A stretch of 64,000 nt of DNA, from contig CANJCM010000001.1 of the NCBI GenBank assembly GCA_947472765.1, forward strand, positions 1 through 64,000. Reading direction: 5' to 3'. This DNA is from Opitutia bacterium (GTDB lineage: Bacteria; Verrucomicrobiota; Verrucomicrobiia; Opitutales; Opitutaceae). Under the pieces are notes generated by a model. It was given only the letters and a program-made list of their open reading frames with translations, searched no databases and was not told where the DNA came from. Below, one piece after another: positions 5,042-7,543 of this stretch (position 1 is its first letter; each line of letters starts with the position of its first letter). Position numbers and translations under genes: made by a program.

Positions 5042-5096
5042 AAGAGTACGATCCAGTTGCGCCGCGCACTTACGCCGACATCATTTCCATCTGACC

Positions 5097-6587
5097 ATGA
5101 GCGAAAAGAACGAGTTGCTGACCACGAACCGGAAGGCACTCACGATCAACCTCGATGAGGCCAAGTACGGGACGTTTGCCGAAATCGGCGCGGGCCAGGA
5201 GGTCGCGCGCATCTTCTTCCAAGCCGGGGGTGCCTCCCGGACCGTGGCAAAGACCATCTCCGCCTACGACATGGCATTCAGCGACGCCATCTACGGCAAG
5301 GCGGCGCGCTACGTGTCGGAGGAGCGCCTCGCCCTCATGCTCAACCACGAGTACCAGTTGCTCCTGGAGCGGCTGGCCCACACGCGCGGAGATCGCAGCA
5401 CGTTCTTCGTCTTTGCCAACACCGTTGCCACCAAAGGCTACAAGGGCAACGAGGCCCATGGCTGGCTCGGCGTGCGCTTTCAGTCGGAACCCGGCGGCGC
5501 GCCCAGTGAAGTCGTCCTGCACGTCCGGATGTGGGACAAGGAAAACGTCCTGCAACAGGACGCCCTGGGCATCGCGGGCACCAACCTGATCTACGCCGCG
5601 TTCTATTATCGCGACGACCCGGAGCGATTCATCCAGTCGCTCGTCGACAATCTCGGCGTGCAACGGCTCGAGGTCGACATGCTCAAGTTCTCCGGTCCGG
5701 CCTTCACCTCGGTGGACAACCGGCTGATGTCGCTCCACCTCGTCCAATTCGGACTGACCAACGCCGTGATGTTCGGGCCCGAGGGTCAGGTGCTGCAGCC
5801 AGCGGAAGTCCTGTATCGCCGCGCCGTGCTGGTCGAGCGTGGCAGCTTTCAGCCGGTCAACCACGTCAATGTCGACATGCTGAACTGCGCCACGGCGCAG
5901 TTCGTTCAGGAACCCGCCGTGAAGGGCAAGGAAGTCGTCGTGATCATGGAAATCACGATGAACAACCTCCTGTCTGCCGGGACCCTCGATCCGAAGGACT
6001 TCCTCTCGCGCGTCGATCTACTCGGTGAACTCGGGTTCACGGCGATGATTTCCAACTACTCCGAGTATTACCGTCTGACGTCCTACTTCCGCCGGTACAC
6101 GAAGGAGATGATCGGGGTGACCCTGGGAATCAGCAACCTCCTCGAAGTCTTCAACGAGAAGTACTACGAGCACCTCGAGGGCGGCATCCTGGAGTCGTTC
6201 GGGCGCATGTTCCGGCAAGCCGTGAAGCTCTACATCTATCCGATGCGCCAGGAGACCTATGACCGCTACCTCCAGAGCAGCGGCGGCACCTCCGCCGGTT
6301 CCTCGCCCACGCATGCCTTCTCGTCCGACGTGCTGATTACGGCCAAGAACGTGCAGGTCGCGCCGCATCTGCGGAACTTGTACGCCCACCTGCTGGAAAA
6401 CCACTACCTCGATTGCATCGCGGGATTCGATCGCGATGTGCTCAGCATCTTTTCCCGCGACGTCCTCCGGCGGATTCAGGAGCGGGATCCCCTGTGGGAA
6501 ACCATGGTTCCGGCCAAGGTCGCGTCGGCGATCAAGGCTCGGAAGCTCTTCGGCTACGCGGAGCCGGTGGTCGCGGCCGCCAGCTAG
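5097..6587 (+). CDS. Conserved protein of unknown function, 496 residues
   Basis: I do not recognise a characterised family. The ATG at 5097 was chosen over upstream in-frame starts because the upstream region contains a REP-like hairpin pair and reads as low-complexity arginine-rich sequence. The protein is soluble-looking with no signal peptide or membrane segment and has well-ordered stretches such as 'FFVFANTVATKGYKGNEAHG', 'WLGVRFQSEPGGAPSEVVLH' and 'MLNCATAQFVQEP'. I have a recollection of close homologues with misleading automatic labels (TonB-dependent receptor, nucleotide adenylyltransferase), and nothing in the sequence supports either: no plug, barrel or HxGH motif is seen. It precedes dapF by about 100 bases on the same strand. 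Confidence 0.8.
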   Translation: MSEKNELLTTNRKALTINLDEAKYGTFAEIGAGQEVARIFFQAGGASRTVAKTISAYDMAFSDAIYGKAARYVSEERLALMLNHEYQLLLERLAHTRGDRSTFFVFANTVATKGYKGNEAHGWLGVRFQSEPGGAPSEVVLHVRMWDKENVLQQDALGIAGTNLIYAAFYYRDDPERFIQSLVDNLGVQRLEVDMLKFSGPAFTSVDNRLMSLHLVQFGLTNAVMFGPEGQVLQPAEVLYRRAVLVERGSFQPVNHVNVDMLNCATAQFVQEPAVKGKEVVVIMEITMNNLLSAGTLDPKDFLSRVDLLGELGFTAMISNYSEYYRLTSYFRRYTKEMIGVTLGISNLLEVFNEKYYEHLEGGILESFGRMFRQAVKLYIYPMRQETYDRYLQSSGGTSAGSSPTHAFSSDVLITAKNVQVAPHLRNLYAHLLENHYLDCIAGFDRDVLSIFSRDVLRRIQERDPLWETMVPAKVASAIKARKLFGYAEPVVAAAS

Positions 6588-6688: not shown

Positions 6689-7543
6689 ATGCGCTTCCAC
6701 AAATATCACGCTCTCGGCAACGACTACCTCGTGCTTGATCCGGCGGATTATCCGGCCTGGCCGTCCGGCCCAAGCCCGGACCAGATTCGAACCCTCTGTC
6801 ATCGTAACTTCGGCGTGGGTTCAGACGGCATCCTGTGGGGCCCGCTGCCGTCCTCGCGCTGCGAATTCGGCCTGCGAATTTTCAACCCCGACGGCTCCGA
6901 AGCAGAAAAATCCGGCAACGGTCTCCGCATTTTCTCCCGCTATCTTTGGGACGGTGGACGCGTGCGCGAAGATCCGTTCAGCATCGAGACACCCGGGGGG
7001 GCCGTTCGCTCGGTGGTCCGGGCCGCCGGCCGCGAAATCACGGTGGAAATGGGCAAGGTAAGTTTCCGCAGCGAGGTCATCCCGGTGACCGGCCCCGCGC
7101 GCGAAGTTCTGAACGAGAAAATCACCTCGGGTGATCGCGAATTCACGTTCTGTGCGGCCACCATCGGCAATCCGCACTGCGTGATTCCCCTGCCTGCCAT
7201 CTCCGCCGATCTCGCCCGTCAGTACGGACCCGGCCTCGAGGTGCATCCGTCCTTTCCGCGGAAGATCAACGTCCAGTTCCTGCGCGTCCTCGACCGCGCC
7301 AACATCCAGATCGAGATCTGGGAACGCGGCGCCGGCTATACGCTCGCGTCGGGCAGCAGTTCGAGTGCGTCAGCCGCCGTCGCCCACCGGCTCGGTCTCG
7401 TCGACCGGGACGTCACGGTGCATATGCCGGGCGGAAAAATCCAAATCGAGATCGGCGATGGGTTCTCCATCGCGATGACGGGATCGGTGACGCGCGTCAG
7501 CGACGGCGAGATCGACCCGGAGATCTTTTCCGTCTCCCCCTGA
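6689..7543 (+). CDS. DapF-like protein (diaminopimelate epimerase fold) lacking both catalytic cysteines
   Basis: The 284-residue protein has the DapF fold: 'MRFHKYHALGNDYLVLDP' at the N-terminus, 'GVGSDGIL', 'RIFNPDGSEAE', 'TIGNPHCVI' and a C-terminal 'IEIWERGAGYTLASGSSSS'. In authentic DapF the two blocks 'E.CGNG' and 'TLACGTG' carry the two catalytic cysteines that interconvert LL- and meso-diaminopimelate. Here both positions are serine (Ser75, codon 6911-6913; Ser221, codon 7349-7351). The rest of the fold looks intact, so this is not a decayed gene. It may have lost or altered racemase activity, or act on another substrate. The start at 6689 fits the family N-terminus exactly. Confidence 0.85.
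   Translation: MRFHKYHALGNDYLVLDPADYPAWPSGPSPDQIRTLCHRNFGVGSDGILWGPLPSSRCEFGLRIFNPDGSEAEKSGNGLRIFSRYLWDGGRVREDPFSIETPGGAVRSVVRAAGREITVEMGKVSFRSEVIPVTGPAREVLNEKITSGDREFTFCAATIGNPHCVIPLPAISADLARQYGPGLEVHPSFPRKINVQFLRVLDRANIQIEIWERGAGYTLASGSSSSASAAVAHRLGLVDRDVTVHMPGGKIQIEIGDGFSIAMTGSVTRVSDGEIDPEIFSVSP

Follow-up and report, generated by a model that had tools for sequence, protein, structure and literature searches.

Diaminopimelate (DAP) epimerase, DapF, is the textbook example of a thiolate/thiol pair that performs a very hard proton transfer. In the available text on the DapF of Anabaena, the catalytic cysteines lie at the N-terminal ends of helices 2 and 4 with no basic residue within 4 Å of the catalytic sulfurs, DAP is bound via N13, N66, N164, N197, E215, R216, and T226 plus backbone groups, and aziDAP bonds covalently to the cysteines (PMC12039745). 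Catalytic serine is described in the proline racemase superfamily, which has a related fold: a Ser/Cys enzyme carries out 4-hydroxyproline epimerization and a Ser/Thr enzyme acts as a trans-3-hydroxyproline dehydratase, both with the catalytic serine at the site of the first cysteine, and some clusters of the superfamily miss one or both cysteines (PMC4113996). These enzymes differ from the protein described here in family and in substrates, and the portion of that paper available to us describes no Ser/Ser pair. Among relatives of DapF, cysteine mutants are crippled, as for HisR C67S/C209S (PMC11602996) and, in the accessible text, for C101A/C233S of PddB, a racemase for a different diamino acid that lacks the distal-carboxylate binders (PMC8225329). 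The DapF of Chlamydia trachomatis comes from the same superphylum as the organism studied here and from a host that likewise has no MurI; unlike the protein described below, it keeps both cysteines, and the accessible text reports a PLP-dependent glutamate racemase activity (PMC5885031).

The window analyzed here (64,000 nucleotides; positions 1 to 64,000 of contig CANJCM010000001.1, assembly GCA_947472765.1, from an Opitutia bacterium of the Opitutaceae) encodes a DapF-family protein of 284 amino acids plus stop codon on the forward strand (6689..7543). The protein scores 227.4 bits against the NCBIfam equivalog TIGR00652 (cut-off 114.65) and matches the Pfam family DAP_epimerase (PF01678) in two stretches (177 bits, cut-off 34.7); DAP_epimerase is the only Pfam family found at E-values up to 0.001, so that sequence does not place the protein in the proline racemase superfamily. 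Its closest solved relatives by sequence are DapFs, with whose catalytic cysteines two serines align: Ser75 (codon TCC, 6911..6913, forward strand) in a KSGNG block at the site of the first catalytic cysteine, in the context NPDGSEAEKSGNGLR, and Ser221 (codon TCG, 7349..7351, forward strand) in a TLASGSS block at the site of the second, in the context WERGAGYTLASGSSSSA. Translation and alignment thus confirm the claim of the first-pass annotation that serine replaces both catalytic cysteines of a DapF homolog. The PROSITE signature N-x-[DN]-[GS]-[SENGFT]-x(4)-C-[GI]-N-[GA]-x-R, as quoted in the accessible text of PMC8225329, fails on this protein and matches if serine is permitted at the cysteine. 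Annotation by family score conceals the swapped catalytic residues, and no earlier description of a Ser/Ser DapF was found in the open-licence literature searched, as far as its available text extends.

The Ser/Ser form is neither a sequencing error nor a chance event, because it was read at sequence level in all of the best 80 matches listed from genome contigs and in 56/56 genomes of the phylum that have the Ser/Ser type. The titles of these 80 relatives are mostly those of Opitutaceae and other Verrucomicrobiota, with one cyanobacterium (Westiellopsis, L072), and the records among them that are labeled Opitutaceae carry the Ser/Ser form. Altogether, 196 DapF-family sequences were read, comprising 145 Ser/Ser (138 distinct), 50 Cys/Cys, one fragment, and no mixed form. 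In a tree of 186 of these, a single change of label between Ser/Ser and Cys/Cys suffices, with a support of 99 (obtained with a quick method, on an unrooted tree with several long branches). We define the main clade as 143 Ser/Ser sequences, that is, the 145 without two plasmid genes (L209 and L210). Mean pairwise identity within the main clade is 64% and the active site is invariant, while mean identity to the Cys/Cys sequences is 32%.

Several further residues are fixed together with the serines. Position 74, which adjoins Ser75 (codon 6908..6910, forward strand), is Lys in 143/143 main-clade sequences and in none of the 50 Cys/Cys sequences, 40 of which have Met; position 209 (codon 7313..7315, forward strand) is Glu in 142/143 and Arg in 46/50 Cys/Cys sequences; and position 217, four residues N-terminal of Ser221 (codon 7337..7339, forward strand), is Tyr in 142/143 and in one Cys/Cys sequence (L212). 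Position 224 is Ser throughout the main clade and Gly in 50/50 Cys/Cys sequences, and position 81 is Ile in all 143, where 47/50 Cys/Cys sequences have a further conserved cysteine. The first-pass annotation had regarded the remaining motifs as intact, which is only nearly the case, the departures being Gly224 to Ser in the CGTG block, Cys81 to Ile, Lys at position 74, and Glu at position 209. Other cysteines were considered as stand-in catalysts and rejected: Cys37 (143/143) and Cys164 (140/143) are not taken as catalytic because they are also present in Cys/Cys sequences (31/50 and 17/50, respectively). The AGY and TCN classes of serine codons are both used at Ser75 (at least four switches) and Ser221 (at least seven switches), which is uninformative because control serines likewise use both classes.

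An AlphaFold2 model, for which the input was the window protein together with 46 of the 80 related loci, has the two-domain DapF fold (mean pLDDT 93.8). Ser75 and Ser221 sit immediately before helices 76-88 and 222-234, at helix starts like the cysteines of Anabaena DapF in the published description (PMC12039745). The top Foldseek match of the model is the DapF 8qzy, and in VIA-align the top is tied between the O-ureidoserine racemase 7vdy (Z 35.5) and 8qzy (Z 35.3). Cys/Cys DapFs (PDB 8qzy, 9mro, and 1gqz) share the fold over the full length (Z 33-35, 33-37% identity) and resemble the window protein in DAP-binding residues, in catalytic positions at helix starts, and in genomic role; they differ from it in that the window protein has serine at both catalytic cysteines, Lys74, Glu209, Ser224, and Ile81. 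Proline racemase and the hydroxyproline enzymes match the model at Z 23-27 with 12-16% identity (VIA-align).

The counterparts of the Anabaena DAP binders in the window protein are N11, N66, N161, N194, E212, R213, and S223. The first six are each invariant across the 143 main-clade sequences, including the residues for the non-reacting end of DAP (N66, N161, N194, E212, and R213), and position 223 is Ser in 136 of the 143 and otherwise Thr. Retention of these residues and of the fold bears out the first-pass description of an active-looking but altered family member. The two Ser/Ser sequences outside the main clade are plasmid ‘dapF’ genes of Streptomyces sp. NBC_01216 and Agrobacterium vitis; they resemble the window DapF in being Ser/Ser and in lying on the same side of the tree, but differ from the main clade in the absence of N161, Lys74, and Tyr217 and in belonging to a different operon. 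Ser/Ser alone does not mean DAP, because these two genes stand in a different operon and are without N161. Since the pocket is kept in the main clade, whereas binders are missing from PddB (in the text available) and from the plasmid Ser/Ser genes, the comparison of sequences favors the view that main-clade proteins act on DAP.

In the genome of origin (96% complete), neither a second DapF (PF01678 profile search) nor a match to DAP dehydrogenase (Ddh) was found, and both a second DapF and a bypass through Ddh were rejected. The genome encodes DapL (566 bits), MurE (510 bits) with a DNPR motif, which we take to mark meso-DAP ligases, and a LysA-like protein (280 bits) just below the family cut-off (297.9). 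A genome of the same genus (G010, 100% complete) has the Ser/Ser gene and DapL without Ddh, and six single-contig genomes of the order (G088, G091, G122, G140, G271, and G274) have no DapF match other than the Ser/Ser gene; in these six, DapL exceeds the cut-off and Ddh does not. The first-pass suggestion that the organism uses another DAP route or a second DapF, leaving this protein to do something else, finds no support in its genome; it is also opposed by the order genomes that carry the Ser/Ser gene, of which 36/39 have no Ddh over the cut-off. DapL is over the cut-off in 26/44 order genomes. LysA matches in the order are strong (445-464 bits) in 20/44 genomes (L143-L146 and 16 further places), and in the remaining 24, including that of the window, LysA-like proteins score lower and stay below the cut-off; there may be two LysA lineages within the order.

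The distribution of the gene was assessed in 288 genomes of the same phylum and 146 of the cyanobacterial phylum, with genomes outside the Ser/Ser set read at sequence level in part. The Ser/Ser gene is present in 56/288 genomes of the phylum: 39/44 in the order of the window organism, in each of which it is the sole DapF match, and 17/244 elsewhere. In the rest of the order, two genomes of one genus (G223 and G286, g15) have a Cys/Cys DapF in place of the Ser/Ser form, two (G148 and G175) have no DapF match and a full Ddh (449 and 443 bits), and one (G282) has neither, as is also the case for G097 and G152. Family f22 includes two Ser/Ser genomes (G023 and G188), and the four others read are Cys/Cys (G015, G093, G156, and G185). 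Three of the 146 cyanobacterial-phylum genomes carry the Ser/Ser gene: beside two Cys/Cys DapFs in G288, beside one in G312, and as the only DapF match, without Ddh, in G373. Two genomes of the window’s own phylum (G244 and G275; 5 and 9% contamination) have the Ser/Ser gene plus an ordinary Cys/Cys DapF; these two, together with G112 and G215, also encode a Cys/Cys paralog in which Phe replaces Arg213. Such a Cys/Cys DapF-like paralog, with EFG in the ERG block where the DAP-binding Arg213 would be, was observed at L141, L142, and L157-L160, six genomes’ worth of loci in which it accompanies either kind of DapF; it is possibly another amino-acid racemase.

If the Ser/Ser gene did not have DapF function, its genomes would need Ddh or a Cys/Cys DapF. 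Ddh is over the cut-off in 17/20 genomes without a DapF match versus 3/59 with the Ser/Ser gene. Within the order the counts are 2/3 and 3/39, respectively (the latter being G018, G080, and G099), and outside it 15/17 and 0/20 (17 genomes of the same phylum and three cyanobacterial). Fisher values are 1.4e-11 for all genomes, 1.5e-8 for those outside the order, and 0.03 for those inside it, and serve as description rather than strict tests, because they ignore relatedness (family f16 accounts for 13 of the 15 Ddh genomes outside the order) and because the 17 DapF-less genomes outside the order were called with the window protein as the only query, a search that a very divergent DapF could escape. 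The repeated replacements (g15, g24, family f22, and G373) are a better argument than the Ddh statistics. Taken as a comparison of genomes, these distributions suggest that the Ser/Ser gene fills the DapF step.

Based on these data, we consider it probable that the window protein is a thiol-free DAP epimerase, the only one of its organism, which would convert LL-DAP to meso-DAP with the two serines as acid/base pair; most likely, the protein still makes meso-DAP. DapL would make LL-DAP, and the Ser/Ser DapF would convert it to meso-DAP for peptidoglycan (MurE) and lysine (LysA). We infer catalytic activity on DAP, with the Ser75/Ser221 pair moving the alpha-proton in place of the two cysteines, while substrate binding and helix-end geometry would be those of an ordinary DapF. 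The change from Cys to Ser most likely had a single origin, together with the co-fixed block of Lys74, Glu209, Tyr217, Ser224, and Ile81, and would have been retained since. The co-fixed residues probably tune the serines; for example, Lys74 and Tyr217, as candidate helper residues, may ease deprotonation.

The cell-wall chemistry of the family bears on DAP epimerization in both directions. In the available text of PMC5303756, DAP was detected by GC/MS in Lacunisphaera strains and Opitutus terrae, without assignment of the stereoisomer and along with ornithine, which supports a DAP epimerase, but at about one-tenth of the amount in Escherichia coli, which weakens it; DapF is listed for Lacunisphaera there, without comment on the active site. 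The reading as a DAP epimerase is also weakened by the crippled cysteine mutants of its relatives (HisR and, in the text available, PddB); by the three genomes that hold both the Ser/Ser gene and Ddh (G018, G080, and G099); by the coexistence of Ser/Ser and Cys/Cys genes (G288, G312, G244, and G275, with the paralog in G112 and G215); by the genomes without a DapF match and without Ddh (G282, G097, and G152); and by the LysA of the organism itself, slightly under the family cut-off.

MurI is scarce in the order, a hint that the Ser/Ser DapF may also take part in making D-glutamate. A bifunctional DAP epimerase and glutamate racemase, like Chlamydia DapF, would add to the role of sole DAP epimerase rather than exclude it, and we regard it as possible, if tentative. 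MurI has no match in the genome of the window and is over the cut-off in only 8/39 Ser/Ser genomes of the order (absent from 31), and both DapF-less Ddh genomes possess it (8/41 versus 2/2, Fisher 0.05); in addition, Chlamydia DapF makes D-glutamate, and most PVC bacteria are described as having DapF without MurI (PMC5885031, available text). However, the decisive side of this comparison consists of two genomes, D-glutamate could come from a D-amino-acid transaminase (Dat), and Chlamydia DapF needs for glutamate racemization both of the cysteines (PMC5885031, available text). The absence of MurI is not tied to Ser/Ser, because it is missing from both Cys/Cys genomes of the order as well, and G373 has MurI with the Ser/Ser gene. 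The window protein scores 57.1 bits against the bifunctional DapF/glutamate racemase model NF038284, below the cut-off of 350. G148 and G175 (loci L149 and L150) are the only genomes of the order with Ddh and no DapF match, and both have MurI, which is absent from 34/44. A fuller version, in which a thiol-free two-base epimerase of Opitutales-type bacteria, its serines activated by Lys74 and Tyr217, would act on an alpha-proton of pKa ~29 to make both meso-DAP and D-glutamate, with its loss in G148 and G175 paid for with Ddh and MurI, is speculative and, as a whole, doubtful.

We consider it unlikely that the protein is a paralog of altered function with DAP or some other amino acid as its ligand, either a different racemase or non-catalytic, while an unrelated enzyme makes meso-DAP. 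The loss of both catalytic thiols would fit such a paralog, given that replacement of the cysteines in relatives removes most or all of the activity in the accounts available, as would the plasmid-borne Ser/Ser relatives in an unrelated operon and the joint occurrence of Ser/Ser and Cys/Cys genes in G288 and G312. Nevertheless, the residues that bind the distal end of DAP are kept in 143/143 sequences, the Ser/Ser gene is the sole DapF match in 39/44 order genomes and is mostly replaced by a Cys/Cys DapF or Ddh where absent, and an additional enzyme would be required across dozens of genomes. On the Streptomyces and Agrobacterium vitis plasmids, a shared gene order was observed at loci L213:10308-16006 and L214:10177-16113, consisting of an iron-containing redox enzyme, a 2OG-Fe dioxygenase, dapF, a molybdopterin oxidoreductase, and an aldo/keto reductase; this operon resembles a pathway for a small molecule that has a thiol-free epimerase of its own. 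That the bacteria use LL-DAP directly, or little DAP, and that the epimerase has decayed is highly improbable, as the low DAP of Opitutaceae, with none by TLC and ornithine found (PMC5303756, available text), is set against a strongly conserved gene (143 sequences at 64% mean pairwise identity with an invariant active site), a MurE with DNPR, and the presence of Ddh, a meso-DAP maker, in most genomes without a DapF match.

The gene neighborhood was considered as a clue to function and is uninformative, yielding housekeeping families or none. Eight window proteins were assigned by Pfam to S49 peptidase, redoxin, Dus, bifunctional nuclease, LpxI, and Fe-S assembly families, or to no family. At seven other loci, 20 proteins (part of the ORFs there) were scanned and included no DAP or lysine gene; one of the 20 is the dapF itself, and six belong to L230-L232, three loci at which the Ser/Ser gene is absent. 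The upstream neighbor of dapF (5094-6587) matches no Pfam family and has a homolog within the examined flank of the Ser/Ser dapF in 43/80 related loci.

The Ser/Ser protein is a conserved, thiol-free DapF variant that extends across a lineage, and its proposed chemistry is what surprises most. It also touches a long-standing question, the low DAP content of Verrucomicrobia subdivision 4. If the Ser/Ser DapF is indeed a DAP epimerase, thiol-directed inhibitors such as aziDAP should miss the whole group, and a lineage that uses two serines would serve as a natural experiment on why DapF needs cysteine at all.
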